A DNA stretch of 61,915 nt from Paludibacteraceae bacterium. Lineage in GTDB: Bacteria > Bacteroidota > Bacteroidia > Bacteroidales > Paludibacteraceae. Positions within the stretch are counted from its first letter, which is position 1. Each line of letters opens with the position of its first letter. The position numbers were made by a program, and so were the translations under genes. The stretch lies in contig JAFVDD010000018.1 in the NCBI GenBank assembly GCA_017478725.1, positions 1-61,915 on the forward strand, given 5' to 3'. Positions 9,221 through 61,914 of this stretch are shown here, in pieces. The notes under the pieces are model-generated. The model had not been told where the DNA came from. It saw only the letters and a list, made by a program, of their open reading frames with translations, and ran no database searches.

Positions 9221-9256
9221 TCGGGGTTTCATCGGGGTTTCATCGGGGTTTCATCG
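9221..9256. repeat. Three tandem copies of GGGGTTTCATC at the trmO stop codon
   Basis: An 11-bp unit repeated three times. The trmO stop codon (complement of 9240..9242) lies inside it, so the last residues of TrmO (DTMKPR) are encoded by the repeat. Confidence 0.75.
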
Positions 9257-10070
9257 TATCATACCCGACTTTATATATACTACGTATATATACTTGTGAT
9301 TTTGGAAAACGCCCCTCATCCTTCGTACTTTCTGCCCCATCCTTCGTACATCGTACATCCTCCCTTCGTACATTAAACGCCACCCTCCATCCTCCGTAAT
9401 CCAACTTATACTCCCTTTCAGGGTCGGTTTGATACCCAGGACGGGGATCCTGCCGCAGAATATACAAAATATCCTCAGCCACATCTGCCGGCACGCCCCA
9501 CTCTTCCGCCAGTGCCTCCTTCGTACAGCGTACATCGTTCCTCAGTACCTCCAGCTCATAATCCTTCGTCTCCTCCGCGAAACCGTTCCTTGCCTCCTCA
9601 TGGCTGTCACTGAAACTCAAATACGGCTTGATATCATATATCGGCGTACCGTCCAGCACATCCGCCCCGCTGACAATCAACTCCAATCGTCCTTCCTTCG
9701 TACTTTCACTCCTTTGCCCATCCTTCGTACATCGTACATCCGTCCTTCGTACCTCAATCAGCCTGACGCTGCTCAGTCCTATCGGATTAGGCCGGAACGG
9801 ACTCCGTGTCGCAAAAACGCCCATCCTTCTGTTTCCTCCCAGCCTTGGCGGTCGCACCGTCGGAGACCACGAAGCACTTCCGCCTTTACTGAATCCCCAT
9901 AGCAGCCATAGATGGCTGAACCCTTCTATGCCACGCAACGCTTCCGCCACGTTATATTCCGGCTCAAACACAATCTGGGTCAGTATAGGACTTTCCTCCC
10001 TGCTCTGACGCGGAATGCCGAACTTGTCTGTGTGCCCGTTTCGGGCATATGCAATCACTTTTAACTCCAT
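9240..10070 (-). CDS. trmO: tRNA (N6-threonylcarbamoyladenosine(37)-N6)-methyltransferase, with in-frame repeat insertions
   Basis: SAM-dependent methylation of t6A37 in ANN-decoding tRNAs (TrmO/YaeB/TsaA family). Family signatures are present: KFGIPRQ, FSHLWLLWGF, RPPRLGGNRRMGVFATRSPF, RPNPIGLSSVRL, DVLDGTPIYDIKPYL and QDPRPGYQ. The start is MELKV at 10070, next to a promoter; an upstream ATG at 10109 would add 13 atypical residues. Three segments of low-complexity sequence are inserted in frame: RRTDVRCTKDGQRSESTKEG after the RPNPIGL strand, LRNDVRCTKEA, and RREDVRCTKDGAESTKDEG before the C-terminus. They are encoded by GTACGA-type repeats (9315..9372, 9516..9548, 9689..9752). Core motifs are intact, so the enzyme is probably still active. 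Confidence 0.9.
   Translation of the reverse strand: MELKVIAYARNGHTDKFGIPRQSREESPILTQIVFEPEYNVAEALRGIEGFSHLWLLWGFSKGGSASWSPTVRPPRLGGNRRMGVFATRSPFRPNPIGLSSVRLIEVRRTDVRCTKDGQRSESTKEGRLELIVSGADVLDGTPIYDIKPYLSFSDSHEEARNGFAEETKDYELEVLRNDVRCTKEALAEEWGVPADVAEDILYILRQDPRPGYQTDPEREYKLDYGGWRVAFNVRREDVRCTKDGAESTKDEGRFPKSQVYIRSIYKVGYDTMKPR
9315..9372. repeat. CTTCGTAC/GTACATCGTAC repeat, copy 1 (inside trmO)
   Basis: Copies of CCTTCGTAC and CATCGTACATCC arranged in the order seen in copy 3. Both contain the block ATCCTTCGTACATCGTACAT followed by a further CCTTCGTAC, and both begin with TTCGTACTTTC. It encodes the insert EDVRCTKDGAESTKDEG. Confidence 0.8.
9516..9548. repeat. CTTCGTAC/GTACATCGTAC repeat, short copy 2 (inside trmO)
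   Basis: CTCCTTCGTACAGCGTACATCG with a trailing AGTACC; a shorter, more diverged copy that encodes RNDVRCTKEA. Confidence 0.65.
9689..9752. repeat. CTTCGTAC/GTACATCGTAC repeat, copy 3 (inside trmO)
   Basis: Same word order as copy 1 with a spacer about 6 nt longer between the first CTTCGTACTTTC and the CATCCTTCGTACATCGTAC core. It encodes RRTDVRCTKDGQRSESTKEG. Confidence 0.8.
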
Positions 10071-17193: not shown

Positions 17194-17233
17194 AATCTTC
17201 GAATTATTTATGTTATACATTACACTTTACACA

Positions 17234-20200
17234 TTAGAACGAGATTTCCACACCACCTTGGAAAGTACGGCCCACAGGATAGTTCTCTGTGTACATACCG
17301 GCGAGCCTGCCGGAACCGCCCTCAAGTGTGATTTCCGGATCCATACCGGAGAACTTGCTAAAGGTCAAAATATTGTCCGCGCTGAAATAGATGCGGCATT
17401 TGGTCATGTGGGCTTTCTTGATCATCTGAATCGGGAAGTCATAACCGAGCGTGAGGTTCTTGATACGGAAGTAAGAACCATCCTCCAAGTAACGGGACGA
17501 GATAGAGTTAGCCGACTTGTTTCCGTTGAGTTGTGCTTTGGGGTGAGTAGCGTTATCACCGGCTTTGGTCCAACGGCTCCATCCCAGCGAAGAGTTCTCA
17601 ATCGAAAGTTGGTTGTAGCCCAGATAAGCACCATCGGCATCATACGCCTGACGGGTGTAGTTGTATATCTGATTGCCGAACATGAAATTGGTATTAAGAT
17701 GGAGGAAGATACCATTCCAACTGACTTGCGTATTGAGACCACCGGAGAAGAGCGGTGTAGCCTTTCCTACAGCATGCTCATACGTAGCGTTGTAATCATT
17801 CGTAGTAGTCTTGTTACCTGCTCCATCCAATACATAGTTGCCATTTGCATCCACTACGTACCATAGCGGGTCACCGTTAGCCGGATCTACACCAGCCCAC
17901 TCTTTCATATACCACGTATAGATATCCTGTCCTTCTGCCACTTGTTGGTGAACAGAAGACTCAATCTGCAGGAACGGAGTGTGGTTGGGGAGGCTGACTA
18001 CGCGGTTCTGGTTGAAACCGATGTTAAAGCCGAGATCCCAGCGCCATTTGTTCATATTGATAATATTGGCATCAATGCTATACTCGATACCGCGGTTGCG
18101 TACGGCACCAATGTTCTTCGTTACCTCATAGAAACCTGTGGAAGGAGCAACGGGCACATTAAGCAGCAGACCTGTGTTATCGGTTTGATAAAGGTCAATA
18201 GACATATTAATACGGTCAATGAATGCCAAATCAACACCTACTGCTGCCATGTTGGCGGTCTCCCAGTGAAGTTCAGGGTTAGCCAGACGACTCGGACTAC
18301 CAGCCACGTTGGTCTGATAGAGTTTGTTCAGCGCGTAGGTAGAGAGGTACTTGTAAGCAGGGATATTGTTGTTACCCGTGATACCATACGAAGCGCGCAG
18401 TTTGAGGAAAGTGACGATATCCTGCTCACGCATAAAGTCCTCGTTGGAGATGAGCCAGGAAGCAGCGACCGAGGGGAAATAACCCACACGGTGGTTCGGT
18501 GCGAAGATAGAACTTGCCTCAGCACGGAAGGTGGCTGTAATGAAATAGCGTTTGTTCCAGTCGTAGCTGGCTTGGATGAATGCCGCCCAACTCTTGCCCG
18601 GCATAATATAACCGCCATTGGCCAACGGGGAAGATGAGTTGAGCGCATCTACGCCGTTAGGCATTCCCACGCCGGAAGCGGATGTATATTCTGTCCGCCA
18701 AAGGCCGTACTCGAATCCTGCCATGGCATTGAAACTATGCTTATCCCATTGATAGCCTCCTTTGAGGATATTGGTTGTTCCAAAACTTTTGCTGAGACCT
18801 ACGCTCTTGCCTATATAGCCGTTGGGATACGATGTATCATAAACACGCGGGTCTATATAGTCTGTTGAGAGCCAGTGGCCGGCGCCAAAGGTGTTGGTAG
18901 TAGTAAAATGCAACCAATCGGTGAAATGTACATTGAGTTGAAGTACACCCGAGAAGTCGAAATTATCACCCTTAGCATAGTTGTATTCCGAAGAATGGAG
19001 CGAGTTCCATGTCTCCTGGCTCCACCATTTGCCTCCGTTGTCAGGACGTGCACCTTTCTCAATACGTATATATTCGTTGGTAACGTTGCCGTTAGCGTCG
19101 TACACATACGGGCAGTCCCAAGGCATCTTGCCATAAGCATCCGCCATCATGGTCCATGTAGCGGGATAATCTACGGACGATTTGCTGAAATCAACCTTCA
19201 CATTCATATCGAGCCACTTGGTAATATCGGCTTTGAGCGAAGCATGACCGCTGACTTTCTGCATACCGGTGGATTTGAAAGTACCTTGCTCGCCGAAATA
19301 GTCGAGCGAGACGTAGTAGCCTACATGCTCCGAGCCGCCGTGAACAGCTACGTTGTAGTTTTGTACCACACCTATGTGGAAGAACTCGTTTTGCCAGTTG
19401 TAATCGGACAGTTCGTTGAGTTTCGGATAAATAGCCAAGAACGCGCCTGCGCTATACAAAGACTTATGGTAGTTGTACAACTCACGCGAGTCCATCATCC
19501 TATAGTTGCCGTAGAGTGCCTGCTTGGCACCGGCGGTAGCACGGAGATCCACATGCACTTTGTCGCCTTTCTTATCGGACTTGGTAGTCACTACAATGAC
19601 ACCACCGGCAGCAGCGGCACCGTAGATACCCGTAGAACCGGCATCCTTGAGGACGGAGATGGTCTCCACATCATTGGGGTTGAACGTACCGCCCATGACA
19701 CCATCTACTACGTAAACAGGGTCACTTCCTGCAGTGATTGAGCCCGTACCGCGGATACGGATCTGAGCCGCATCGCCCGGCTGGCCACTGGCGTTGGTAA
19801 CCGTCAAACCGGCTACTTTACCTTGCAGCATGTTTCCGATATCACTGGTGGTGACGTCGGTCAGTTGCTCAGCACTCACTGTTACTACCGCCGAAGAAAG
19901 TTCGGCTTTCTTGACAGCCGAATAACCCAGCGACACTACTTCCTGCAGCTGCAGGGCGTCGGACTCCATGATAATCTGCATCTCGTCCACGGCGCGGATC
20001 TCGATGGTCTTGTAGCCCAGGTAGGACAATTGCAGGGTAGCTTTGTCCGGCACTGTCAGTTCGAAGTTACCGTCAAAATCCGTAACGGTACCTACCGTCG
20101 TACCCTGTACCAGCACACTCACGCCAATCATCGGTTCCGAGTTGTCGGCGTCGATTACCTTACCCCTCACATGGATGTCGGCGGCTGCCGATACCACGAT

Positions 20201-20236: not shown

Positions 20237-20260
20237 GTTATTTGTTTTTTGGTTAATTAT

Positions 20261-20306
20261 AGTTTTCTAACTTTCTAGCATTCTAGTTTTCTAGTCTTCT
20301 AGTTTT
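20261..20306. repeat. TTCTAG word repeat between the GH36 and SusC genes
   Basis: About five degenerate copies of TTTTCTAG/TTTCTAGC/TTCTAGTC in tandem. It runs into the GH36 stop region, so the final LTEN residues are part of it. Confidence 0.75.
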
Positions 20307-22203
20307 CGGTTAGTTTCAGCAGATAGTTGCGCTCGAAGGCTGCATTGATCTGCGGGCAGTTGCCGTTCACCTCAAACTCCCGCGGCTCGTCGGCAGTGTA
20401 TTCCACGGCCGTGTATATCTTGCCCTTCTCCAGTCCGCGGAGCTCAATCGTGCCCTCAAACGGCTTCTCGTCCGAATAGAAAGCATAATACAATGCACCC
20501 TTTGAACATTCGCCGTTCGCCTCTTCGCCATTCGTCTTTATCACGTGTGCCTCGGGATAATCATAGCCCCATGTGTAGAGATTCAGATACTCGCCGCGCG
20601 CCAGATTGTTCTCCTTGTATATCTTCATCCATTTGCGGATCAGTTGCTCCTTCTCGGGCGTAAGCAGGTAGGATTGATCCGGATTATACGGGTTGTCCTT
20701 GGGATAGGTGAACTTGGTACCAATCACCGAGCCGGTGCCTATCTGCGAAGCGAAATCATCGCCTCCGTCGGTCAGCTCCACATGGTCGCCGTAATAAGCG
20801 AGAGCGGGTGCCATAGCCGCATAGGCTTTGCGTTTCATCCGCACCTGACGCGAACTGGTAGGGTCGGAAGCCACAGCCTGGTTGATATTCGGCAGGATGA
20901 AATAATTCACTGCGCAGCCGCAGGGGCAGACCTGAATGACAGCGTGAGGCTTGTAGCTACGCGCTTCCGCCAGCACTTTGCCGAAATAGCCCGGCATCTG
21001 CTCCGGTGCGTCCCAAGGGCTCTCCAGTTGCGAAGCCTCGTTGTAGTCCGGCAGACAGCAGTTCAGGTGCTGACCGTCGATCTTCAGGCCGTCAAAGCCC
21101 CAGGTCTGCATAAACATTTTCAATAAGTCTCGGGTATAGGTATCGGTAATAGGATTGACGGGGGAGAGGTACCAGCTGTCCCACCATGTGATATATTCGC
21201 GTGCCCACTCTTCGGTGCGGAGCAGCATCTCCGGATGTTCGCGCACGAGTCTGGTATCGGGGTCGGCAGCCAGCGGTGCCCACCATAGTTTGGCTTTCAT
21301 GCCGCGGCGGTGTACCTCGTCGGTCATACGGCGCATATCCCTGTCGCCGCCCGGGAAACGGCTGTTGGTCTGCCAGTCGCCTTCGGCTATCTGGTAGCCG
21401 TCGTCGATGTCCACCCATTTGAAGCCTAACTCTGCTACTTTGTCCAGCGTGCCGATCACCTCGTCAATGGTGAACAAACGGTGATAACCCCATGCGCACC
21501 ACACAGGCTCAAACGCCTCCGGCTCCGAGGGCTGCATCTGCACGCCGAGGTGCGCCTGCATGTAGTCGGAGAACACCCTGAGTGCATTGAAATAATCGCC
21601 TTTGTGGGTATAGCGGAATGCCCTGAAGCAGGTGAGTGTATCGCCTTGCTGCAGCACTACCGGTTCCGGCAGGTTGTAGCGCAGCGCCATCGTCACATGT
21701 TTGCTGTCGTACTGCCATTCTACCGGCATGCTGATCATACGCAGCACCGGCTCCAGCAGACCGATAGCCACGCCGCCGTCCCGCTGCCACAGATCCACCA
21801 CGGGGATGCCGCCGCCGTAGTCGCAGTTGTTCATACCCAGGTAGTTGTCTTTGGCAAAGCCGCGTGTCACAGGCAGCACCCAGTCCATGCGTGCGGCGGT
21901 AGAACTCGGCTGGAGCGACCATACCACGCTGTCCTGCGCCTCCACTTCGGTGCGGCAGAGCTCATAACCTTTCACCGTCACGGGCTGGCCGTGGTTGATA
22001 AACCGGGTCTCAATCAACTCCAGCCCCGGCACGCCTTCCACAGGTGTCACGGTCTGCAGTTTGCTTACTATGAATCCGCTATGATGGTACGGAAACTGCT
22101 GAATATCCGCCTCGGCACATATCAGCCGCTCGTTCTGCGGACGAGTAGCGCACCCTGTCAACAGCAAGATGAGACTCAATGCTATGTATGATGATTTTTT
22201 CAT
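20299..22203 (-). CDS. GH36-like (clan GH-D) alpha-galactosidase or alpha-N-acetylgalactosaminidase lipoprotein
   Basis: 634 residues. Lipoprotein signal ending LLLTGC; N-terminal beta-sandwich (~30-225); TIM barrel (~230-530) with WVDIDDGYQIAEGDWQ, GMKAKLWWAPLAADPDTRL and nucleophile Asp in GFDGLKIDGQ. VCPCGCAVN and the candidate acid/base Asp in ASDPTSSR follow; a C-terminal beta-domain closes the protein. Clan GH-D enzymes retain configuration and cleave terminal alpha-galactose or alpha-GalNAc. The amino-sugar catabolic genes nearby make alpha-GalNAc an attractive substrate, but this is an inference. A word repeat (20504..20536) is read in frame as TNGEEANGECSKG in the C-terminal domain. 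It lies between the amidohydrolase and susC genes of the same operon. Confidence 0.82.
   Translation of the reverse strand: MKKSSYIALSLILLLTGCATRPQNERLICAEADIQQFPYHHSGFIVSKLQTVTPVEGVPGLELIETRFINHGQPVTVKGYELCRTEVEAQDSVVWSLQPSSTAARMDWVLPVTRGFAKDNYLGMNNCDYGGGIPVVDLWQRDGGVAIGLLEPVLRMISMPVEWQYDSKHVTMALRYNLPEPVVLQQGDTLTCFRAFRYTHKGDYFNALRVFSDYMQAHLGVQMQPSEPEAFEPVWCAWGYHRLFTIDEVIGTLDKVAELGFKWVDIDDGYQIAEGDWQTNSRFPGGDRDMRRMTDEVHRRGMKAKLWWAPLAADPDTRLVREHPEMLLRTEEWAREYITWWDSWYLSPVNPITDTYTRDLLKMFMQTWGFDGLKIDGQHLNCCLPDYNEASQLESPWDAPEQMPGYFGKVLAEARSYKPHAVIQVCPCGCAVNYFILPNINQAVASDPTSSRQVRMKRKAYAAMAPALAYYGDHVELTDGGDDFASQIGTGSVIGTKFTYPKDNPYNPDQSYLLTPEKEQLIRKWMKIYKENNLARGEYLNLYTWGYDYPEAHVIKTNGEEANGECSKGALYYAFYSDEKPFEGTIELRGLEKGKIYTAVEYTADEPREFEVNGNCPQINAAFERNYLLKLTEN
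20504..20536. repeat. ATTCGCCGTTCGCC/TTCGCCATTCG repeat inside the GH36 gene
   Basis: Three or four copies of TTCGCC[A/G]TTCG-type words. Reverse-complement words (GGCGAATGGACGAATGG) occur at 39599..39650, 40796..40827 and 31687..31725. Confidence 0.6.
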
Positions 22204-22209
22204 AATTGT

Positions 22210-22261
22210 GGAGTTCTGGAGTTCTGGATTACCGGAATTCCGGATTACCGGAGTTCCGGGA
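22210..22261. repeat. GGAGTTCYGGA/TTACCGGA word repeat between the amidohydrolase and GH36 genes
   Basis: Six degenerate copies of [G/A]TTCCGGA-like words fill almost the whole gap. The same words occur in frame in ftsK (46541..46605) and in the gap at 44088..44106. Confidence 0.8.
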
Positions 22262-24629: not shown

Positions 24630-24672
24630 GACGTTATGACGTCATATCGTCATGGCGTCATGGCGACATATC
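24630..24672. repeat. GTCATATCGTCATGGCGTCATGGCG word repeat
   Basis: Four or five copies of a 9-bp word TCGTCATGG/GCGTCATGG. It belongs to the family also seen at 29935..29964, 56115..56176, 57201..57228 and 57988..58080, and inside the DUF3575 gene. Confidence 0.75.
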
Positions 24673-26553: not shown

Positions 26554-26650
26554 GGGTGACCCGATATTGACCCGATATTGATCCGATATGACCCCGAGGC
26601 ACTACCGAGTCGGTTCTCTCTCGGCAGTGTCTCGCCAGTCTGATTTCGGG
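26554..26650. repeat. Compound repeat: GACCCGATATT words plus an interspersed element shared with 44734..44795
   Basis: 26554..26593 holds four copies of GACCCGATATT/GATCCGATAT. 26594..26650 holds a ~55-bp element whose second half (TTCTCTCTCGGCAGTG, then TCTCGCCAGTCTGATTT) recurs between lolA-like and ftsK. Both copies sit between genes in the same orientation. Confidence 0.7.
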
Positions 26651-29909: not shown

Positions 29910-29934
29910 AATATTAAGGGTTTAAAGGGGTTTT

Positions 29935-29964
29935 GTCGGGATGTCGTCATGGCGTCATGGCGAG
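29935..29964. repeat. GTCGTCATGGCGTCATGGCG word repeat
   Basis: Three copies of the 9-bp word, the same family as 24630..24672, in the gap between two phosphoesterase genes. Confidence 0.75.
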
Positions 29965-35054: not shown

Positions 35055-35061
35055 GGGATGT

Positions 35062-37697: not shown

Positions 37698-37742
37698 CTA
37701 TTTAATCATTTAATCATTTATCTATTTTTCTCATTTATTCAT
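37698..37742. repeat. TTTAATCATTTAATCATTTATC word repeat
   Basis: A 9-bp unit TTTAATCAT followed by decayed copies (ATTTATC, TCATTTATTCAT), filling the agaS-gatZ gap and including the agaS stop codon. Confidence 0.75.
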
Positions 37743-39598: not shown

Positions 39599-39650
39599 TT
39601 AAGGGTTAAGGGTTAAGGGTTAATGGCGAATGGACGAATGGTGAATGATT
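39599..39650. repeat. GGGTTAA and GGCGAATGGACGAATGG word repeats
   Basis: Three copies of AAGGGTTA, then GGCGAATGGACGAATGGTGAATG. The second half is read in frame as the C-terminal IIHHSSIRH of the HAD-kinase protein, so the gene end was extended or replaced by repeat. Confidence 0.75.
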
Positions 39651-44818: not shown

Positions 44819-47392
44819 CTATTTCACACCGAGGTCTTCGAGGAGTTGGTCGAGTTGGGAGAGGTCCTGTATGAGAACGTCGCGTCCTTTGGGTCCTTTG
44901 TTGGGTCCGACGATACCGGCGGCTTCGAGTTGGTCGGACAGTTTGCCTGCGCGGTTGTAGCCTATCTCGAAGGCGCGCTGGAGGCGGGAAGTGGAGCCCT
45001 CCTGCTTGGTTACCACGTATCGGGCTACGTCGGCAAACATCGGATCGAGGCGTTTCATATCTACGCTACCCGGCGCGAGCGCTTCTCCTTCGCCGCCCTC
45101 GCCGAAGTATTCAGGCAGCTGGTACGGCTCGGTATAACGCTGCTGCTTGCTGATATGCTTCACTATCTCATCGACTTCGGGCGTATCCACGAACGCACAC
45201 TGGATACGTGTGACGGAAGCGTTGCCGGCATAGAGGCTGTCGCCGCGTCCGATGAGTTGCTCCGCTCCCTTGGCGTCGAGCACGGTACGCGAGTCGATGA
45301 CCGACTGGGTGCGCAGGGCTATACGCGTCGGGATATTCGCTTTGATGACACCCGTGACGATATTGACGGACGGACGCTGGGTAGCGAGGATCATGTGCAT
45401 TCCGACGGCACGCGCTTTCTGGGTGATTCGCGCGATAGGCGTCTCCACCTGTTTGCCCGCCTGCATGATAAAATCGCCGTACTCGTCGATGATGATGACG
45501 ATATAGGGCAGGTACTGGTGGTGCAGGCTGTCGCCGACCAGTTTGTTGGGGTTGAGGCGACGGCGTACGAACTTGTCGTTGTAGTCCTCCAGATTGCGCA
45601 CTCCGGCATCCATGAGCAGTTTGTATCGGTTCTCCATCTCGATGACGAGCGAGTTGAGGGTGTTGATGACCTTGTCGCAATCGGTGATAACCACCTGCTC
45701 GGGATCGGTGTCGGGCTGAGCGGCCAGGAAATGCTTGATGAGCGGTTTGTAGGGCGCGAACTCGACCATCTTCGGGTCCACCATCACCAGTTTCAGCTCC
45801 GCCGGATGTTTCTTGTAGAGCAGCGAGGTGATGATAGCATTGATAGCGACGGACTTACCCGTTCCCGTAGCACCGGCTACGAGCAGGTGGGGTGTCTTGG
45901 CGAGGTCGAACATAAAGACCTCGTTGGTGATGGTTCGTCCGTAAGCAATAGGCAGCCGCATCTTCTGCTCCTCCTGGAAGCGCTTGGAGGCAATGACGGA
46001 GTGCATCGAAACGACCTGCGGTTTCTCGTTCGGTACCTCGATACCGATAGTTCCCTTGCCCGGCATCGGGGCGATGATACGGATACCCGTGGCGGAGAGG
46101 GAAAGCATGATATCGTTCTCCAGCGCCTGGATCTTCGCTACGCGGACTCCGGCTTTCGGCACTATTTCGTAGAGCGTGACGGTCGGTCCGACCGTTGCTT
46201 TGATACTATCAATTTCTATGCCATAATTGCGGAGAGTGGTCACAATGCGTGCGCCGTTGGCGCGTTGCTCGTCCTCGTTGATGACCGGCGCCGCCTCGTT
46301 GTCATAGACCTTGAGCAGGTTGAGGGAAGGGAACTTATAGAACTCCAGATCCTTGCGCGGGTCGTAGGGTCCGAGTTTCTCCAGCAGTTTGTCGGGGTCT
46401 TTGGAATAGAGTTCGTCCTCAACCACCTCTTCTATCTCCAGATCGGCCTCGCCTACAGGCTCAGGTTCCGGCTTAGCCTCCTCTACCATCAGATCGGTAA
46501 GCGAAGCGTCGGCGGGACCGCCGTCATCGGGGAGCTCAATCTGGATTTCCGGAATTCCGGATTCCTGAATTTCCGGAGATTCCGGAGAATCCGGAGAATC
46601 CGGGGTCTCGATTGTGAAGGTGATTTCGTCCGGGGTATCGGAGGAGTCGGAGGGTTCGTCAACGGGCAAGTCGAGTGTCACTTCGGCGGGTTCGTCTGTC
46701 GGCTGTTCTTTTTTAGGTTTGCGCGCGAAAGCCTGCTTGAGCCAAGCGGCGAAGGCTTTGCAATGCGGGATAAAGTTCGGGTCAGTCACCACCAGAAAGA
46801 TGATGAGCGTCAGCGCCAGCAGGATGCTTATTCCCGCTATCTGGATATAACTCAGCAGCCACGCCGATGCGCTGTAGCCGAAGGCGCCTCCCCAGCGGAA
46901 CGTACCCAGATGGATCATCTGCTGCGCAAAGCCCAGCAGGAGCGCCCCCCACAGCACCCAGAACACACCGCCGCAGAGCATCTTGACGGCATGAATATCC
47001 CGGAAGACATGCATCAGTCGCAAACCGTACACGGCTATCATGAACACCAGCAGAATACTCACCAGTCCGAAGCTGCCGTCGATCATGAACTGCGCCAGCG
47101 TAGCACCCGGGAGCCCCAGCATGTTTTTCACCTCCAGACGGTTGGACACACGCTCGGCGTGATCCATAGCGAGCACCGACTGGTCAGCCGTGCCTGTGAA
47201 CAGATAGCTCACGTACGCCAGCAATGCCACTACGGCAAAGCCGAGCAGGATGAGTCCGAAGACCATCTGCGTGCGGCGGTCGAGGAAGAAGCGCCTGAGG
47301 CTCTCCCACCATTTCTCTTTTTCCACTTTGATAGCCCGCTCCTCACGGCGGTCGGACATACTATGGCTTGATTTGGATGATGTTCTGGGCAT
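44819..47392 (-). CDS. ftsK: DNA translocase FtsK/SpoIIIE
   Basis: Septal ATPase that pumps chromosomal DNA and activates XerCD resolution. 857 residues: N-terminal membrane domain with four to five helices (~42-215), an acidic Pro/Ser/Glu linker (~220-330), and the alpha/beta motor (~345-790) with Walker A GATGTGKSVAINAI and Walker B YIVIIIDEYGDFI, plus QRPSVNIVTGVIKANIPTRI. A C-terminal gamma winged helix follows (~795-850: SRLQRAFEIGYNRAGKLSDQ), which recognises the polarity sequences. The linker holds an in-frame TTCCGGA word repeat (46541..46605) read as TPDSPDSPESPEIQESGIPE. MSDRREERA at 47359 is an alternative start. Confidence 0.97.
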   Translation of the reverse strand: MPRTSSKSSHSMSDRREERAIKVEKEKWWESLRRFFLDRRTQMVFGLILLGFAVVALLAYVSYLFTGTADQSVLAMDHAERVSNRLEVKNMLGLPGATLAQFMIDGSFGLVSILLVFMIAVYGLRLMHVFRDIHAVKMLCGGVFWVLWGALLLGFAQQMIHLGTFRWGGAFGYSASAWLLSYIQIAGISILLALTLIIFLVVTDPNFIPHCKAFAAWLKQAFARKPKKEQPTDEPAEVTLDLPVDEPSDSSDTPDEITFTIETPDSPDSPESPEIQESGIPEIQIELPDDGGPADASLTDLMVEEAKPEPEPVGEADLEIEEVVEDELYSKDPDKLLEKLGPYDPRKDLEFYKFPSLNLLKVYDNEAAPVINEDEQRANGARIVTTLRNYGIEIDSIKATVGPTVTLYEIVPKAGVRVAKIQALENDIMLSLSATGIRIIAPMPGKGTIGIEVPNEKPQVVSMHSVIASKRFQEEQKMRLPIAYGRTITNEVFMFDLAKTPHLLVAGATGTGKSVAINAIITSLLYKKHPAELKLVMVDPKMVEFAPYKPLIKHFLAAQPDTDPEQVVITDCDKVINTLNSLVIEMENRYKLLMDAGVRNLEDYNDKFVRRRLNPNKLVGDSLHHQYLPYIVIIIDEYGDFIMQAGKQVETPIARITQKARAVGMHMILATQRPSVNIVTGVIKANIPTRIALRTQSVIDSRTVLDAKGAEQLIGRGDSLYAGNASVTRIQCAFVDTPEVDEIVKHISKQQRYTEPYQLPEYFGEGGEGEALAPGSVDMKRLDPMFADVARYVVTKQEGSTSRLQRAFEIGYNRAGKLSDQLEAAGIVGPNKGPKGRDVLIQDLSQLDQLLEDLGVK
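46541..46605. repeat. TTCCGGA word repeat inside the ftsK linker
   Basis: About eight copies of [A/G]TTCCGGA/AATCCGGAG words, all in frame, in the unstructured linker between membrane domain and motor. Confidence 0.85.
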
Positions 47393-47398
47393 AAAGAG

Positions 47399-47441
47399 AT
47401 GTACGATTTATGATGTACGATGTACGATTTAAGTACGATGG
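47399..47441. repeat. ATGTACGATTTATGATGTACGATGTACGATT word repeat in the ftsK leader
   Basis: Four copies of GTACGATTTA/GTACGATG words between the ftsK promoter and start codon, related to the trmO and SusD repeats. Confidence 0.8.
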
Positions 47442-53500: not shown

Positions 53501-56146
53501 CTGCTGATAGTCGTGTGCATAGGTAGCGTTACTGAAGATCCGGGTGCCGTTGGTGGCATCACGGCCTATATTATAATAGGTAGCAGAGGCATCTACTTCA
53601 TCGCCGGTAGCCAGCATCACCTCATATACACTGGGGGTGCCGGTGCCCTTGATGATGAATGGGGTGCCGGTGTCGCCCCAACCGAGCGCGGAATTGTTGG
53701 AAGCAGAGGCGGTGATAAATTTGTTTTTCAACTTATTCTTGACGGTCATGGCGTAGGGATCAGAGCCGCCATTATACCATAGGAATTCAACAGCATCGGC
53801 CTCACTGTCCGTAATGGTTTCCTTACTCAAGATAGCGTCTGTTTCGCTGTCATAATAGAGATACTGACCATTCAGGCGGACGTTGACTTCGTGCAAGCCG
53901 TCTATGTAATCCAAATAACTCTTATACGGCTCTTCAGTAATGCCCGAAATGTCATAACGCACATAGATGTGTTGTTCCTCGTCCCCTTCCGGGGCATAGG
54001 TGATGGCAGACGAACTGTTTTTTGCATTGTCCTCCGTTTCATAGAACGACAATGTAGCACCCGGGAAACCTACAAACGGGCTTCGGATGATTTCGGGGAT
54101 ATGGGAGAAATCGAGTTTGGTGCTGACCTCCTGGGTGGTTGATGCCTTGGCAGCGATAGAGCCGTCGCTGCGCATGATATGATAGACATAATCCTTGGAC
54201 GGCAGATCAATGACTGTCAGACGGGCGGCATCGGTAGCACTTCCTCTTAGAGGGTAGCCCTCATCTGTGTTGCCGTAATGCCAGCCCAGATATTTGGTCG
54301 CGCCGCTTCTGTCATTGGCGAATTGCTCCATCCGGAAGCAGTCGGAATAGCTACCTGTGTTGTCGTCATACTTGATTTCCCACGCCGTGCCTGTACCGTC
54401 ATAGGTCAGGTTGTCGGTAAACGTAGCGGCAAACGTCAGATACCGCAACGCTCCTGCGGCATTAGAGGCGAAGCGCGAGACGATCTTCATCTCGAACGGG
54501 TCGCCGATGAAAGCGAAATGGCTGTCTTCAAGAATACGTGAATGGTGTTTGTTGGTCTTGAAAAGCCCGTCTTCCAGCCATACGATATATTGGGGTTCCT
54601 TGTTGGTGTAGAAATTGTACCAAGTGAGGTCGCTGTAGGTGGCATCCGCAGAAGCAGTCTCAAAAGGCATGTCAGTCTCGTAGGAGAGATAAATAACCTT
54701 GCGCTCTACACCGTCAACCGTTTCGGTAGTAGTACAAGCGCTAAACGCCTCCTGGAAAGTGGTGACCTCGCTGGTCATCTCCTCGTCACTATAGGCGCCG
54801 GTAAAGGTCGCATACTTGCGCATCAACTTATCCGGGATGCAGCTCATCGGATCCTCATCGCCGAAGATGGAAGTCATGTCAAGGGGTTCCGACACCCAGT
54901 TGCCGAACGGCGTTTTCACCTTGTAGAGGAAATGCTCTACCCGGCCTATCTTGATAAGAGTGGAGTTGTAGTTTTCTCCCGTTTTGAACTGCGGGTTCAA
55001 ACCGCCGTTAGGCACCAGGTTGTAGTAGAGGCCTGCTGCGGTAGGCTGGCGGGTCTGGCCGTTGCAGTTCACCTTGGAAGCCACAAAGGTATATTCGCCG
55101 CCGTCGTTTGCGAAGGATTGCCATGCTGCGGGTTTACCCGCTTCGGGATGAGGGAGCAGCGCCACCGCACTGATCATATTCGTCATCTTTGAGCCCTCGG
55201 CGTTGTCCTTAAAGGTACCGGGCACTGTGTCGGGAATGGCAGATGAGCCGTCGGTCCATTGTATCCGGTCTTCGTTCTGAAACCACAGGTTGTTGACCAG
55301 TCCGCCGTACAAGATAGCGCCGTCCGGTTTTTTCTTGAAGCCGTTCTGCGTATAGGTCCAGCCGTCGGAGGCTGTGCTATAGCCGGTCTGGATGATGATA
55401 TGATAGGGGTCGCCGCCTTGGAAATTGAAAAGGAAATAGAAATCGCCGCTCATATCGCTCACCTGCTGGTTGGTCAGGGATACAATCGCATCCTGGAAGA
55501 TCAATTCCTTGATTCGGGTAAAATACAGCGACCGGTCATAGATATTATCATTGGTGGTCTTACTGTCCTTCGGCGCCGTGATACGGTTGCCGCGGGTTCT
55601 GTTGTAAGCCAGAAAGCGGTCGCGGGAGAGCTGGATGTTGTATTTGGCACCGCCATTCAGGTTGAGGTTCTGACCCATTTCCGTACAATAGGTGGCATTG
55701 GAACGGTCGTAGTCATACACCACATAGATATGGGTGCCGTCGGCTACCGTTGCTCCTTTCTTGTCGGTAGGGGAAGCGCTAATCTGATAGAGATCCAGCT
55801 TGGTATTGTTATTGGCATAAACTTTCGCTAGGGCGGTGATGGTCACATCCGATGCAAGATAGTAGTGATACGCGGCGTCCTTGAGCAGCGGGCTCTTGAA
55901 ATCGGCAGGCAGATCTACCGTAGTAGAAGTGCTGGTGCAGACCAGTGCCTCATAGCGGTAGTTATCCGCGGAATTGTTTGTTGCATCGAAGTTCCAGTCA
56001 TGCAGTTTGCCCGTTGCCTGTGTTGTGCTGATCGGCAGCGTCAGAATATGGTATGTCACATCCGCATAGCTGCCGACGCTCGCCAGCAAAGCTATCAGCA
56101 GAATGGTGATTCGTTTCGTTATGTCGTTATGTCGTCGCATCATCAT
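47516..56146 (-). CDS. Giant (2,876-residue) modular secreted protein with full T9SS C-terminal sorting domain
   Basis: No enzyme family recognised. Signal peptide near the start (ITILLIALLASVGSYA); the preceding MMMRRHNDITKR is encoded by a gap repeat, so an internal start is possible. The body has about eight divergent copies of a 250-400-residue module. Each opens with YHLIDKAG/YNYHIIDNDG-like strands, passes [S/N]PL..YYY, then [D/H][I/V]YVRY or YVTY, and closes with W.W[F]..[G/D]DPY followed by a strand. The DPY/DPF marks lie near residues 245, 547, 795, 1047, 1457, 1710, 1972 and 2250. A C-terminal non-repeat region (LWYYATLCVPFDL, VPAGTPVIFSTRR) precedes a full sorting domain (VYDLLGRKVATG, LTPGIYITEGKKIFVQ). 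It follows a fimbrillin gene and could be a surface adhesin; function unknown. Confidence 0.8.
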   Translation of the reverse strand: MMMRRHNDITKRITILLIALLASVGSYADVTYHILTLPISTTQATGKLHDWNFDATNNSADNYRYEALVCTSTSTTVDLPADFKSPLLKDAAYHYYLASDVTITALAKVYANNNTKLDLYQISASPTDKKGATVADGTHIYVVYDYDRSNATYCTEMGQNLNLNGGAKYNIQLSRDRFLAYNRTRGNRITAPKDSKTTNDNIYDRSLYFTRIKELIFQDAIVSLTNQQVSDMSGDFYFLFNFQGGDPYHIIIQTGYSTASDGWTYTQNGFKKKPDGAILYGGLVNNLWFQNEDRIQWTDGSSAIPDTVPGTFKDNAEGSKMTNMISAVALLPHPEAGKPAAWQSFANDGGEYTFVASKVNCNGQTRQPTAAGLYYNLVPNGGLNPQFKTGENYNSTLIKIGRVEHFLYKVKTPFGNWVSEPLDMTSIFGDEDPMSCIPDKLMRKYATFTGAYSDEEMTSEVTTFQEAFSACTTTETVDGVERKVIYLSYETDMPFETASADATYSDLTWYNFYTNKEPQYIVWLEDGLFKTNKHHSRILEDSHFAFIGDPFEMKIVSRFASNAAGALRYLTFAATFTDNLTYDGTGTAWEIKYDDNTGSYSDCFRMEQFANDRSGATKYLGWHYGNTDEGYPLRGSATDAARLTVIDLPSKDYVYHIMRSDGSIAAKASTTQEVSTKLDFSHIPEIIRSPFVGFPGATLSFYETEDNAKNSSSAITYAPEGDEEQHIYVRYDISGITEEPYKSYLDYIDGLHEVNVRLNGQYLYYDSETDAILSKETITDSEADAVEFLWYNGGSDPYAMTVKNKLKNKFITASASNNSALGWGDTGTPFIIKGTGTPSVYEVMLATGDEVDASATYYNIGRDATNGTRIFSNATYAHDYQQLRFQLTLKDAKNVTYHLIDKAGVDLLQVVARQATTESPVFPSDYWSPLVETYYYKTVGEATVSTIADADPESDGTYDIYVTYDTRSDYDLQNKKIMYLLKYEMGDTFNQEDGADGVNVEAQKAIYPYCNGDCNFFVYGQEQFDIQQQGAASTRTRWAWFLESDNNDPYHVKICSRQTETYNGDQARAYFHTYKPSDYSQVVTTLTWPGISSVPGTEYMVLGTVGQFRLVTTYGIDLNNDGDLLDSGENERRTVTSFEQYWKTWDTVRRKVLGDGSAVASQTDPNTVPETPAAPTAAAADKGNRTYLTDVKGWHSYEQWAYAKRWNGYNISGATAKGWEPIEHWYQTVAMGEGYFDLVPIVIDPALILLDQHGWEIMRKPLPNSADDPQLEAKHAALRVYDSPMVKEYYFWTGASKRSGFHQYYNLSRRISVDGVNYTSHSLGDLPPIDATNVKDAKGNVYDQYVTYVAKDEYARSYDPVNKKGAPFLIQQGSHYASYNGSALTKEDVPATGGMSQHILDNIANLTVDGSRNVELWYLKPNPAIDEEMGYNDAPHDNFDDAYKDATDIAGFNTNGFDPYNIRISSVHTNTDFFRTNATGATLHDGILEGTYSADPAVSMSNSAATVSVRWYDSRTLTITNKTFMAVQDESGNMQLMPRFDQTKRMKDFADLVSSSDAEIEKTHTTLYRPLVYNYHIIDNDGNESLRYQSGGDLMPQTPDWFKSRLAKDFTYYTGHTGSTGTGEITDDSSLAGAGLTTAGSAGNDVYVRYTYNADADVDKVLQGKWLTMTLNGLNAVYDSGLKQGSSKPAPVVGDDRTWQWKFLATPQTDPDPYAVSLYNRSQNGDATAVNEKTKFALLNWYDGAIDPAAYTLAVAGTGTYSYAFVNGASMTTSVAATTASEANFKSTSCSYTNTDAKIELNDDVQHTYTYKVYTNGENGSNAVKYGVEAVSATQTYYEAVDNDYVPVLPEEIQSPLLHSNQYLYYEAEAYMGDAAKELHHLYGLYEDDVYVRYTDYDILTTEYKVPNVRNATGGTVARDAASNDAALDISGELIYNIIWYTDNMMASDGTNVTDGGARALDGADDYVWQFVGDDPYALQLKHKNSGKYAVGTNTLAATATSTFMLLPASDGWQYGMLQKTGTTDKLSGYGETTVSSDPTKFIIFGLSTNTVIYHLVIANVGSSETIKYRAEKGGTLGDKTISGSTKRDLTTATYQLGETINGVNYCVNKGHITLGDSLTVPSALKRPNCKYFFYVEGIYTDGDCDRSTPSHVHALDDDYRGLQITRMGAEPELVGATVRINIEYQFDDGLSSNSGSKFVTNANSTEWYTFETNDETPYLAHYTYKANKLTAVEGQVGHYTNDFLWSPVGDPYGFVMYNRYVFKNGGQSTYVMTTASTPVADADIVMKKDDTNNPVYELLPGSASGYFKVQTLTIPGSGTPYYIENSGGTMKLKASTPTEWMFGLSNSLFAPYYQGAGNVGGLNDAGKTAYEGVEKNSSLGLAAQLMAKQDIVYNDANIVQFTPGYYRLSNEPGSSGITSPRYLSGYTHKIELTAGAGGTPIPMHFYERMGVTTTYEVLGSGFTSTPATRGAIPVTGPEYDPASIFYITGTKNAAKMQTQGLYVNGAAMTETEGSATSFYIDDLGGAVVTLRDHSDRGESAYYLNYGQGEDIYDVKFSANIGIADETKWSMEPANKTGLYIETHSGGEEATLSTLWYYATLCVPFDLMVSNKDDDPAHSSNAYTCVPSESPWSETMLHPKAIGKYTNDDAVKANYPETLRRRTTAEDEEEDNDYFVPAGTPVIFSTRRATSYVKATIPTTTPSTSISTIFSYEYLEQLLTPYVDSRRVYVFGPKMEGTLTLNESTGEITATLPSLGNTNVGFHLNANPNKEAGLTRAGWTRNNYYVLHNRIYYRAPAVAPAPKHDVWFVPVLFDDPDEEQPDETKPDGNQQPAPTDGVYDLLGRKVATGAEVLDGTWRLRLTPGIYITEGKKIFVQ

Positions 56147-56176
56147 ATCGTCATGTCGTTATGTCGTTGTGTCGTT
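56115..56176. repeat. TTATGTCG/TCGTCATG word repeat overlapping the giant gene's start
   Basis: Seven or so copies of [C/G]TTATGTCG and ATCGTCATG words; the start codon and the next ~10 codons of the giant protein are inside it. Confidence 0.8.
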
Positions 56177-56204: not shown

Positions 56205-57206
56205 CTACCATTGTTCCGTAAAGTTATTTACATTCACCGTCAAATCCTCCGGCGAGATATTAAAGGTATAGGTATAACTGTATCCCGCCTGCCATGTTAT
56301 CGGGCTGACCGTAGTACTCAGCGCGTGGGCAACCGGCGTGTCACCCCAGTCATTCCAAGACGCGTTCACCTCTATCTCGCCTGCCCATTCCTGAGGAATG
56401 ACAATCAGGTCATTGCCTATCTGCTGCGCGGCAACATTGAGCGTGAAAGCGGTGGTATCGCCGAATACCAAGTTGGTAGCGTCGCCCGAGAGCGTCCATT
56501 CAGGGGAGGCGCTGAGGTCGTACGAGCCGTTGTTCTTGATCGTTTTGAACGTAATAGTGTTGATCGTTATGTCCGGGTGCGAAGCTGCCAGTTGCATCTT
56601 GATCCGGGCGAAAGGATGCCGGAAAGTCAGGCTCACACCGGCAACAGGCACATTCGTTTTGTTCTGCTCCAATGCCATAGCGAACATAAACTCCTTGAGA
56701 TCTTCCTGCTCGGTATCGGTCATGGGCAGGTTGGTGCAAGCGAACGTCACATTGTGCTCGTCGGTGTCATACGTGAGATCCGCTATATACGAAGGTGTCT
56801 CGTACGGGCAGTAGCCCACGAAATCCAGTGTTGAGACAGTGATGGCAGCACCCGCAGGGTCGTACACCGAACCCTCTACAGGCCAGTAGTAATGGAGCTG
56901 AGCGTCCGCATCCGAGTCCCAGAACTGCCATGCCGAAGCGTTGTAATGGAGTGTGGCACCGTTCAGATACTTGGTTGCCGTGCCATGGAAATACGCATCT
57001 ATGCGCAAATCCTCTGCCTGCAGATTTGTTGTGTTATCATAGGTCGTAGTGCGGCGCGGAGCTATCCGCTGCGTCATGGGGCGCACTTCGGTACGCATCG
57101 TTATCTCCGGCTGCGCCGGTTGTATCTCCGGCGTGTCGGTGCTACACCCTGCCAGCAGCCCGGCTGCCAGCAGGAATGATGTCAATATGGGGTGATTTTT
57201 CGTCAT
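56205..57206 (-). CDS. Fimbrillin-family (Mfa-like) lipoprotein
   Basis: 333 residues. Lipoprotein signal ending GLLAGC. Two-domain beta-sandwich of the fimbrillin family: the N-terminal part has LRIDAYFHG, HYYWPVEGS and LDFVGYCPYE; the C-terminal part has VSLTFRHPFARIKMQL, NDLIVIPQEWAGEIEV and WQAGYSYTYTFNISP. A basic site (RIAPRRTT, ~48-54) could be a processing point, as Arg-directed cleavage matures many Bacteroidales fimbrillins. It is likely a minor or anchoring pilus subunit. It lies between a four-helix-bundle protein gene and the giant modular protein gene, ~58 nt from the latter. Confidence 0.83.
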   Translation of the reverse strand: MTKNHPILTSFLLAAGLLAGCSTDTPEIQPAQPEITMRTEVRPMTQRIAPRRTTTYDNTTNLQAEDLRIDAYFHGTATKYLNGATLHYNASAWQFWDSDADAQLHYYWPVEGSVYDPAGAAITVSTLDFVGYCPYETPSYIADLTYDTDEHNVTFACTNLPMTDTEQEDLKEFMFAMALEQNKTNVPVAGVSLTFRHPFARIKMQLAASHPDITINTITFKTIKNNGSYDLSASPEWTLSGDATNLVFGDTTAFTLNVAAQQIGNDLIVIPQEWAGEIEVNASWNDWGDTPVAHALSTTVSPITWQAGYSYTYTFNISPEDLTVNVNNFTEQW

Positions 57207-57228
57207 ATCGTCATGTCGTCATGTCGAT
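57201..57228. repeat. CGTCATATCGTCATGTCGTCATGTCG word repeat
   Basis: Three copies of the 9-bp TCGTCATGT word in the gap between the four-helix-bundle and fimbrillin genes; it enters the fimbrillin N-terminus. Confidence 0.75.
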
Positions 57229-57987: not shown

Positions 57988-58080
57988 TCGTCATGTCGTC
58001 ATGACGTCATGTCGTTATGACCTTTCTTTTCGTCATGTCGAGACGTCGTCGAGACGTCATCGGGATGTCGTCAGGGCGAC
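57988..58080. repeat. TCGTCATGTCG / CGAGACGTCGTC word repeat
   Basis: Two blocks (57988..58022 and 58031..58080) of 8-13-bp words: TCGTCATG, ACGTCATG, TCGAGACG, GGGATGTCG. It makes up most of the 176-nt gap between fimbrillin and four-helix-bundle genes. A weak hairpin CCAAGC/GCTTGG (58088..58118) may be the fimbrillin terminator. Confidence 0.75.
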
Positions 58081-60391: not shown

Positions 60392-61914
60392 AACTCGCCT
60401 CCTTTCTTCTTTTGCTTCAACGGCGCAAAAATGAGCCATTTCAGACTTATCTCCGCCTTGGTGGGACCGAACCAGCGGCGCCTGTACGTTGCCAGCCATT
60501 CGTAGTGACCCGTGCCGTCGTCGGTAGGACGATAGACCTCGTATTCGCCGCCCTGATAACCGACGCCTATATTGAAATCAATAGTCAGACACCTGTGTAC
60601 CGGCAGCGAATAACCGTACTCCACGCCGCCGCCGAAGCCGAACTTGGACGCCTGATAGCCATTGCCGCCAAACTCCACGTCATGCGTCAGAGCCGTTCCG
60701 TAGAGACCCACATGGTGGCCGGCAAAACGCTGTTCGGCTGCCGTCTTGCCAAAATAATACCGCAGCGTCAGATAGCCGCCGTAGCCCTGCCAGAAGATAT
60801 GCTTGGCGTCGGACGACAGCCATGTGCCGAACCAGTCGGCGCCAAGGGTGAATCCCTTGCCCAGCCATACCTCGATACCTATATTGGGCACCAACACTGC
60901 GTCATACAGCAGGTTGGTCCTAAGCGCCACTACTGGCACCTTGACCGGTGCCAGCGTGCTGTCAAAAGCCGCAGCAATCGTATCCGCCGCTGCCGCCGCA
61001 ATACTTGTCGTATCTGCCGCAGCCGCTGCGCTTGTCGTATCCGCCGTAGCCGCGATGCTTGTCGTGTCCGTAGCCGCAGTACTTGTCGTATCTGCCGCCG
61101 CCGCTGCGCTTGTCGTATCCGCCGCAGCCGCGATGCTTGTCGTATCCGCCGTAGTAGCGGTGCTATCGTCATGTCGGGATGTCGCCATGTCCTCATGTCG
61201 AGCCGCTACGCCTGTTGCACCGGCTGTTGCACCCACCGCCGCTACGCCTGTTATATCCGCCGTACCCGCTGCGCTTGTCGTATCCGCCGCAGCCGCAGTA
61301 CTTGTCGTGTCCGCCGTAGTAGCGGTGCTATCCTCATGTCGGGATGTCGTCATGTCCTCATGTCGAGCCGCGCCTGCAGTCGCGCCTGTTATATCCGCCG
61401 TACCCGCCGCGCTTGTTGTGTCTGCCTCAGCCACGGTGCTTGTCGTGTCCGCCGTAGTAGCGGTGCTATCCTCATGTCGGGATGTCGTCATGTCCTCATG
61501 TCGAGCCGCGGCGCTTGTTACACCGGCTGTTGCACCCGCCGCCGCAGCGCCTGTTATATCCGCCGTACCCGCCGCGCTTGTTGTGTCTGCCTCAGCCGCG
61601 GACGCTTCATTCGCACCATGAGCGCGCGTACGAGAAACTGTCCGGTTGCCCTCTGCGGACTCATCCGCGCCTGCTACTACAGCACCCCCTGTAGCTACCG
61701 TATCAGCGGTCTCTGCAACTACAGGTTCAGCGGTCCTTGCGCCCGCCTGTGTAAGTGTATCGGTAATTTCTACGGCCTCCGAGCTCTGCGCCTCTTCAGC
61801 CGTCTGTTCTACAGCCTCAGCCGCCTGCCCATCCTCCGCCTCTTGACCTACAGCCTCCGAGCTCTGCGCCTCTTCAGCCGTCTGTTCTACAGCCTCAGCC
61901 GCCTGCCCATCCTC
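60388..61914 (-). CDS. DUF3575 outer-membrane beta-barrel protein with very long repetitive N-terminal region (5' end outside window)
   Basis: The frame is open to the window edge, so the start is not seen. The last ~185 residues are DUF3575 (LRTNLLYDAVLVPNIGIEVW, FTLGADWFGTW, GYGGYLTLRYYFG, HHVGLYG, FGFGGGVEYGYSLPVHRCLT, RRRWFGPTKAEISLKWL), predicted as an eight-stranded barrel. Upstream lies more than 320 residues of low complexity. First come two 26-residue Glu/Ala repeats (SSEAVGQEAEDGQAAEAVEQ...). Then follow many ADTTS[A/I]AAA units, interrupted three times by a block with ARHEDMTTSRHED that is made of the locus's TCATGTCGGGATGTCG word repeat. The Ala/Thr region would suit a surface or periplasmic spacer. 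It precedes DUF5119 and fimbrillins. Confidence 0.82.
   Translation of the reverse strand, partial: EDGQAAEAVEQTAEEAQSSEAVGQEAEDGQAAEAVEQTAEEAQSSEAVEITDTLTQAGARTAEPVVAETADTVATGGAVVAGADESAEGNRTVSRTRAHGANEASAAEADTTSAAGTADITGAAAAGATAGVTSAAARHEDMTTSRHEDSTATTADTTSTVAEADTTSAAGTADITGATAGAARHEDMTTSRHEDSTATTADTTSTAAAADTTSAAGTADITGVAAVGATAGATGVAARHEDMATSRHDDSTATTADTTSIAAAADTTSAAAAADTTSTAATDTTSIAATADTTSAAAAADTTSIAAAAADTIAAAFDSTLAPVKVPVVALRTNLLYDAVLVPNIGIEVWLGKGFTLGADWFGTWLSSDAKHIFWQGYGGYLTLRYYFGKTAAEQRFAGHHVGLYGTALTHDVEFGGNGYQASKFGFGGGVEYGYSLPVHRCLTIDFNIGVGYQGGEYEVYRPTDDGTGHYEWLATYRRRWFGPTKAEISLKWLIFAPLKQKKKGGEL
61137..61509. repeat. Three ~70-bp coding repeats containing gap-type TCATGTCG words
   Basis: Copies near 61137..61206, 61301..61372 and 61438..61509 share the block ending GTAGTAGCGGTGCTATC and then the words CATGTCGGGATGTCGTCATG and TCCTCATGTCGAGCCGC. 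They are read in frame as DMTTSRHEDSTATTADTTS. The words match the intergenic repeats at 57988..58080 and 56115..56176. Confidence 0.85.
61776..61914. repeat. 78-bp tandem coding repeat
   Basis: CCTCCGAGCTCTGCGCCTCT begins at 61776 and again at 61854. The unit is 26 codons, and the second copy runs off the window edge, so more copies may exist. Confidence 0.85.

Follow-up and report, generated by a model that had tools for sequence, protein, structure and literature searches.

Rickettsia palindromic elements are palindromes of defined families that are read in frame in housekeeping genes, where they are tolerated in loops. Repetitive extragenic palindromic (REP) elements, which go with REP-associated tyrosine transposases (RAYT), are short, have a high copy number, and are mainly intergenic. 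Among direct repeats, TAACTGA repeats were described in Beggiatoaceae, cyanobacteria, and five Bacteroidetes (PMC4679880), GGGAATC repeats in Xanthomonas (PMC4692102), and (GATAGRA)n satellites, which are species-specific, heptamer-derived, and scattered in one genome, in Chloroflexus aurantiacus (PMC6749651). Bacterial heptamer repeats, an excess of heptamers, and the idea of slippage are already known (PMC4679880; PMC4692102). Herein, we analyze degenerate tandem arrays of short words that fill gaps and are read in frame inside genes of contig JAFVDD010000018.1 from a Paludibacteraceae bacterium. The whole analyzed stretch of 61,915 bp is referred to as the window. The analysis points, with a probability of about one half, to a process of word turnover in the genomes of this genus that combines slippage, segment exchange, and a filter on the reading frame.

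The window is contig C29 of G000, a draft metagenome-assembled genome (MAG) of Bacteroidales (Paludibacteraceae-like; 2.16 Mb, 60 contigs, 84% complete). It contains genes for SusCD, a glycoside hydrolase, and a phosphoesterase, as well as trmO, trxB, and ftsK. The 27 TrmO relatives are draft genomes of Bacteroidales or Paludibacteraceae, several with ruminant-derived names, and the array-bearing group is described as gut bacteria. Kinship is given for genomes G001–G036; genomes G061–G064 were reached via named TrmO loci (L028 for G062 and L029 for G063).

Word arrays and vocabularies

Arrays in the window were detected by Tandem Repeats Finder (TRF), and gaps of at least 20 bp were surveyed for periods of 7, 8, 11, and 14–16. 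Degenerate tandem arrays were found in 17 of the 28 gaps, one of which contains the trmO gene missed by the simple gene caller; over 100 dinucleotide shuffles of the gaps, the mean was 0.31 and no shuffle exceeded 2. A preliminary description of the window, made from the sequence alone, had counted at least a dozen filled gaps, which is an underestimate, and the word arrays that it named were found at their places by TRF. The TRF coordinates are 20256–20307 for the TTCTAG-type array, 35061–35095 for TAATGGT, 37700–37742 for ATTTATTC/TTTAATCA, 22210–22259 and 46547–46603 for GGAGTTCC/TTCCGGA, 47398–47428 for GATGTAC, 39599–39647 for TTAAGGG and AATGGCG, and 56116–56176, 57200–57226, and 57988–58019 for the TCGTCATG family. 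As it had also stated, arrays overlap both stop codons and start codons of genes.

In 460 kb of G000 (the window and 20 further stretches, ~21% of the genome), 89 intergenic arrays were found at a stricter threshold, versus 0, 2, and 0 in three shuffles, together with 100 coding arrays, versus 14 in one shuffle. The intergenic periods were mainly 7 (21 arrays), 8 (18), and 11 (28); no intergenic array had a period of 5, 10, or 12. The period was not divisible by three for 86 of the 162 coding arrays in the G000 sample, including 74 of period 7, 8, 11, 14, or 16 (17 in one shuffle). Intergenic arrays of these five periods were found at 0.15–2.39 per kb in 18 genomes of the group and at 0.18–0.65 per kb in three genomes of other families. 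The density was above that of all three other-family genomes in 15 of the 17 other sampled group genomes. The exceptions, G012 and G023, are as low as the outsiders, and therefore most members of the sampled group have the trait, though not every one.

Location in operon gaps and frequent contact with stop codons would suit functional arrays, that is, regulatory or RNA-level binding sites of the kind suggested for the TAACTGA repeats of Beggiatoaceae. This explanation is improbable, since many arrays lie inside genes, the 44 arrays in co-directional gaps longer than 100 bp are evenly spread with no preferred position, different words occupy the same site in different species, no unit position is specially conserved, and lone words mostly occur near expectation. 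The orientation of words relative to genes was also examined, on small numbers; its bias in coding sequence may be explained by stop codons.

Each genome re-uses a few words at many loci, and the mix of words differs between species. The tandem TCGTCATGTCGTCATG, made of the TCGTCATG word and searched with up to two mismatches, was found 137 times in G000 (3 for the reversed control). Four congeners had 74, 34, 19, and 17 copies, and none of the other 32 examined had more than 5. The CCTTTCA tandem CCTTTCACCTTTCA was found in G015 (232), G030 (138), G035 (115), and G000 (94), the respective controls being 17, 16, 9, and 0, and was absent from G002, G004, G017, G019, G020, and G022. Counts of the TCAGCCA tandem TCAGCCATCAGCCA were 83 in G000 (control 2), 25 in G026, where a single long array supplied many of them, 21 in G018, and 0 in G015, while the TACGATG tandem TACGATGTACGATG was found 44 times in G000 and 29 times in G018. 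Dimers of GGAGTTCC were found 22 times in G000 and at most 7 times in each of 40 other genomes. The word CCGACGGTCAG of the window phosphoesterase gene is also located in two gaps of contig C38. The earlier observation that one word family occurs in unlinked gaps and coding segments therefore holds, with counts far above the reversed-pattern control and unequal among species.

Families of consensus units in G000 exceeded the maximum for letter-shuffled units (12 versus 3 for 8-mers, 15 versus 8 for 7-mers), and further excesses over shuffled units were found for 7-mers in G015 (13 versus 6) and G002 (6 versus 3) and for 8-mers in G036 (5 versus 2). Additionally, 16, 37, 19, and 10% of array 12-mers were found again elsewhere in 120 kb of their own genome, versus 2–8% in each of three congeners; the all-gap controls were 5–7% for the own genome and 3–6% for congeners.

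Replacement of words inside genes

In the alignment of 27 TrmO sequences (the window and 26 loci), inserts are found at four places, and the translated words differ between species. The window TrmO has DVRCTK at three places. Elsewhere, the inserts are NLTPTLSTREG at two places (L016, L025), PPNHPLITPLSPPNHPL-like sequences (L018, L019, L021), or (QCTMYKG)n (L013). Most of the first window insert, TDVRCTKDGQRSESTKEG, is missing from the Haemophilus structure 1xqb. At one place with ACAATGT/ACAAAGG words, L013 is 99 bp longer than L011. The structure model of TrmO had a mean predicted local distance difference test score (pLDDT) of 45 and was not used. The trmO frame (window 9240–9262) continues beyond the stop positions of L009 and L012, its own stop being inside the TCGGGGTTTCA array.

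In-frame arrays are also present in the FtsK linker, a GH36-like enzyme, a HAD-kinase fusion, and a DUF3575 protein, although the FtsK linker is variable anyway and its array content is therefore weak evidence. In-frame reading of words, as first described, was confirmed for these proteins and TrmO. The SusD array (17213–17236) lies at the gene start, and one phosphoesterase array (34072–34108) at the start region of its gene. The repeats of the DUF3575 protein at 61 kb include the TCGTCATG word but are mainly 27-, 78-, and 138-bp minisatellites.

Orthologues were compared for 206 coding arrays (period 7, 8, 11, 14, or 16) in 161 proteins from eight genome samples, of which 98 were alignable and gave 202 comparisons. 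Identity was 0.48 for arrays, a value to which close species contribute more than once and which is raised by the shared arrays of the closest pairs, and 0.86 for control segments of the same proteins. An identity of 0.2 or less was found for 76 of the 202 array comparisons and 82 of the 3381 controls. For protein pairs that are 75–85% identical, array identity was 0.19, versus 0.83 for controls, and 40 of 47 arrays were at 0.25 or less; where proteins are at least 96% identical, array identity was 0.85. Only 43 of the 206 arrays begin in the first 30 residues and 16 finish in the last 30, the others being internal. The encoded peptides are rich in S, Q, K, R, and C. Most orthologues beyond the closest species do not have the residues at these places. 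Neither of the two outcomes that the preliminary description had named as contrary to its view was observed, namely shared residues in distant orthologues or word counts at the composition expectation. Within these proteins, the peptides DVRCTKD, SAISHQLSAIS, and LTPTLSTREG have the look of repeats in translation and not of conserved motifs, and annotators should be warned of peptides of this type.

The compared genomes are draft assemblies, many of them MAGs, which would suit an assembly artefact of MAG binning. The chance of this is practically negligible, since near-identical arrays are located at the same sites in separate assemblies of neighboring species, and the frames are open.

The genomes of G062 and G063 were aligned over 168 kb with a divergence of 3.3% (~97% identity), and 40 difference segments were classed by eye. 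Seven of them are unit-type indels (e.g., 8, 11, 16, 21, and 27 bp), and 11 are patch replacements or insertions with word content, 8 in genes and 3 on gene edges. Of the other 22, 14 are stretches of giant secreted proteins that diverge, four belong to a single AT-rich gap, one is an exchanged allele, and three are further segments, one of which has a far-apart match in G063. Words or hairpin words were found in 5 of the 8 gaps between neighboring alignments. The in-gene length changes, three slippage indels and eight patches, are multiples of three in 10 of 11 cases (27, 21, and 6 bp; 6, 18, 24, 6, 21, 39, and 9 bp), a property that the preliminary description had proposed to check; the only other length, 47 bp, is found where a stop is six codons away.

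In the clearest case, a gene of 527 codons has the palindrome CCCCCCTCAATCCCCCCATGGAGGGGGG at codon 387 in G062, G061, and G064 (with one base different in G061). At this site only G063 has GCCATCAGCCATCAGCAGTCAGCT, composed of GCCATCA words, and its flanks are 94–96% identical to those of G062. Because unrelated content is replaced by words at one site between ~97% identical species, slippage alone is insufficient.

The giant proteins of G062 and G063 contain blocks of strongly divergent sequence. Separately, two repeated stretches, L028:2925–3045 and L028:4832–4885, are found again in six related genomes. Most of the listed rows contain the first and 12 contain the second; the first is promoter-like in look and A- and T-rich.

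Origin of the arrays and their positions in the window

In the proposed process of word turnover, arrays of 7-, 8-, and 11-bp units would grow, shrink, and re-copy their own variants through replication slippage. This step is well supported, because unit-sized indels were found and variants are copied along with units. The latter was seen for an apparent 4–6-bp core, which gave a sum of squares of 1166 versus 894 ± 20 over all copies of 7-mers. The signal was lost when each distinct variant was counted once (435 versus 436 ± 10.6; 207 versus 199 ± 8; 282 versus 272 ± 9); therefore, variants are copied together with units, and a conserved core with free spacers was rejected.

In the second step, short segments of ~20–70 bp would be swapped for unrelated word or hairpin content; the permissive sites would be operon gaps, the ends of genes, signal peptides, and variable protein segments. 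The outcome was observed between close relatives; the route would probably be microhomology-guided template switching or end repair at stalled forks, and template switching, as the source of both seeding and replacement, is our guess. New alleles may then pass between species via ordinary homologous recombination. In the third step, selection would act mainly as a filter that keeps in-gene changes in frame, which is supported by the lengths given above. Arrays would need no function. The preliminary suggestion of copying or template switching instead of simple slippage thus stands in that slippage alone fails at replaced sites, but slippage clearly takes part.

Several observations weigh against word turnover with segment exchange. 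In another gene, two very different alleles are distributed crosswise among four species, G062 with G064 and G063 with G061, which suggests interspecies recombination or sorting of old alleles; therefore, recombination can yield an apparent replacement. Divergence within 100 bp of patches is 5.5–5.7%, versus ~3.3% overall, a marginal increase at about the 95th percentile of random positions that may reflect variable segments. No sharing of multi-unit blocks between unlinked arrays was found in any of the 10 families examined, the mean longest common substring being at most ~1.4 standard deviations above that of unit-permuted arrays. For one patch, a search of its own genome gave the nearest other match at 3 of 24 mismatches, and a match with 2 mismatches was found in another species, G061. 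Thus, the copying between loci suggested in the preliminary description was not seen in either of these searches. Word clusters were not above letter-shuffled units for 7-mers and 8-mers of G062 and for 7-mers of G036 and G063. For 14 words tested, lone copies outside arrays were mostly near expectation, with the exception of GGAGTTCC (5 versus 0.93), and CCTTTCACCTTTCA is also high in one other-family genome (23 versus a control of 2). Finally, array density does not track SbcD, a hairpin nuclease subunit: it was 0.15–1.93 per kb in five genomes with SbcD and 0.74–2.20 per kb in eight without a match over the cut-off. SbcD passed the cut-off in 5 of the 24 other genomes of the genus and in 8 of the 16 from other families, and not in G000. 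Loss of mismatch repair was rejected as a cause, mutS1 being over the cut-off in G000 and in 39 of 41 genomes.

Many of these points would be accommodated by local slippage together with homologous import of whole alleles from other species, with no copying between loci. Slippage-sized indels, re-copying of variants, the crosswise alleles, the negative block-copying test, the patch without a close donor, and the slightly raised divergence around patches all agree with it. This possible but tentative alternative leaves unexplained the 137 TCGTCATG tandems in one genome versus at most 5 in 32 of 36 congeners, as well as the near-expectation words outside arrays, unless word-specific mutation bias differs by species.

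A more active version, in which a repair or polymerase pathway specific to each species repeatedly replaces short permissive segments, those for variable parts of housekeeping proteins among them, with arrays from a small genome-wide vocabulary, is rather unlikely. If true, signal peptides and protein loops would be rewritten wholesale from one sister species to the next. It is still less probable that species-specific words are written at breaks by a dedicated enzyme, be it a reverse transcriptase or an enzyme of terminal-transferase-like or telomerase-like type. The unequal vocabularies, the repeated use of a few words, the replaced patches, and the periods of 7, 8, and 11 bp are compatible with such an enzyme, but the block-copy and core tests were negative, and none was identified in searches that covered Y1_Tnp, MutS, and SbcD alone.

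Some palindromic sequences are present in addition to direct repeats. REP-like palindromes are read in frame as NLTPTLSTREG in TrmO and as CCCCCCTC..GAGGGGGG in the comparison of G062 with G063. Hairpin words of the form CAGACCG-(stem-loop)-TGACAGA are located at L104 (~17190), L137 (~13500–15830), and the G064 loci L125; their stems (TCCTTTGGA, CCCTTCGGG, AGGCTAAGCCT) differ in sequence and remain self-complementary. TrxB (window 43087–44064) carries FSLPFREGQGVG, which resembles a translated REP-type palindrome, in a segment for which the alignment with the best solved thioredoxin reductase is poor. The palindromes and the hairpin words with self-complementary variable stems fit fold-back synthesis without proving it. 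They could also be taken as traces of small mobile elements of the REP, Rickettsia palindromic element, or miniature inverted-repeat transposable element (MITE) type that a transposase, for example RAYT, would move; this is hardly likely, since most arrays are direct and not inverted repeats, and Y1_Tnp had zero matches in G000 (84% complete) and only weak ones in the same-genus genomes searched.

The array positions are given in Table 1. Near the contig end, window 60978–61915 contains the 27-, 78-, and 138-bp minisatellites that form the A/T/S-rich N terminus of the DUF3575 protein, and further repeats extend up to the contig end. The 2876-aa protein (window 47516–56146) had no Pfam match. 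The protein encoded at window 57229–57972 has a 23S rRNA-intervening-sequence-like match, which scored below the cut-off, joined to a topoisomerase zinc ribbon.

Table 1. Word arrays and in-frame words in the window (coordinates in bp; TRF marks some of the rows listed by that program)
Position	Strand	Word or array	Location	Detection
9221..9256	.	11-bp array TCGGGGTTTCA, x3.3	Across trmO stop codon (TrmO end ..TMKPR*)	
9344..9359	-	7-bp word TCGTACA (GATGTAC)	In-frame DVRCTKD near TrmO C terminus	
9725..9752	-	7-bp word TCGTACA	In-frame TDVRCTKD in TrmO; insertion vs many relatives and 1xqb	
17213..17236	.	7-bp TTACACA array	Gap and start of SusD-like gene	
20256..20307	.	8-bp CTAG-type array (TTCTAGTT; TTCTAG-type)	Gap filler	TRF
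20507..20534	-	7-bp word CATTCGC/GGCGAAT	GH36-like (Melibiase) gene	
22206..22259	.	8-bp GGAGTTCC/TTCCGGA array	Gap filler	
24630..24670	.	8-bp TCGTCATG-family array	Gap	
26557..26594	.	11-bp TGACCCGATAT array	Gap	
29934..29962	.	8-bp TCGTCATG-family array	Gap upstream of phosphoesterase gene	
32897..32926	-	11-bp word CCGACGGTCAG	In frame in phosphoesterase gene	
34072..34108	.	16-bp TAGTTGAACAGCTGAC array	Phosphoesterase gene start region	
35061..35099	.	7-bp TAATGGT array	Gap and gene end	TRF
37700..37742	.	8-bp TTTAATCA/ATTTATTC array	Gap	TRF
39599..39647	.	7-bp TTAAGGG array running into AATGGCG words	HAD-kinase gene end	TRF
46540..46603	-	8/9-bp TTCCGGA words (PESPEIQESGIPEIQ)	FtsK linker	
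47398..47431	.	7-bp GATGTAC array	Gap upstream of ftsK	
56116..56176	.	8-bp TCGTCATG-family arrays	Gap and start of 2876-aa gene	
57200..57226	.	8-bp TCGTCATG array	Fills 22-bp gap	
57988..58019	.	8-bp TCGTCATG array		
58037..58075	.	11-bp GTCGAGACGTC array	Adjoins TCGTCATG array 57988..58019 (word mosaic)	
61166..61510	-	TCGTCATG words within larger 27/138-bp repeats	DUF3575 protein N terminus	

Comparison with known systems

In the open-access literature searched, no paper was found on tandem repeats in Paludibacteraceae, and, judged by titles and abstract openings, no description of a multi-word, species-specific vocabulary that is swapped in frame at the same protein places between sister species. 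Rickettsia palindromic elements share the in-frame insertion in conserved genes (TrmO and others), so the parallel drawn in the preliminary description holds for in-frame tolerance only; the arrays here are short direct repeats, though palindromes and hairpin words occur too. Some REP-type palindromes are also present, but the arrays are direct and without REP architecture, and Y1_Tnp had no match in G000. The copied donor tract of template-switch insertions was not found here, where one patch was searched and the block-sharing test was negative. Phase-variable repeats change copy number within a species and shift the frame; the data here are from comparisons between species, in which 10 of 11 in-gene slippage or patch changes keep it.

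Borg tandem repeats are similar in that they evolve fast, are located in gaps and genes, and often encode disordered protein segments. They are perfect, virtually all unique per genome, and divisible by three in genes (PMC9879509); the arrays analyzed here are degenerate, their words recur genome-wide, and 86 of the 162 coding arrays in the G000 sample do not have such a period. The satellites of Chloroflexus aurantiacus are one word family in one species, and the part of their description considered here contains no in-frame replacement among close relatives (PMC6749651).

The closest system is the bacterial long simple sequence repeats (LSSR), to which tandem units of 5–11 nt with 7 favored, a location mainly in gaps and at some gene ends, and sporadic distribution across species are ascribed, with slippage as the proposed cause. 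Units of 5–11 bp above chance and length changes by whole units (7 of 40 segments, classed by eye) were found here as well. LSSR and TAACTGA repeats have one dominant motif, with related heptamers rarely repeated, and coding copies mostly at protein ends. In contrast, several word families with periods of 7, 8, and 11 bp were found per genome here (TAACTGA itself was not searched for), and the degenerate words are also located in internal segments of conserved proteins, as most coding arrays are, and other content takes their place at the same site. The genomes thus provide a natural comparative record of new peptide segments entering conserved bacterial proteins, apparently without transposons and with the frame filter visible. 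The preference of bacteria for 7-bp repeats also becomes testable, as dozens of sequenced species in the genus show gain, loss, and replacement of words. Compared with the known bacterial heptamer repeats, a vocabulary that turns over inside coding sequence is what is new.

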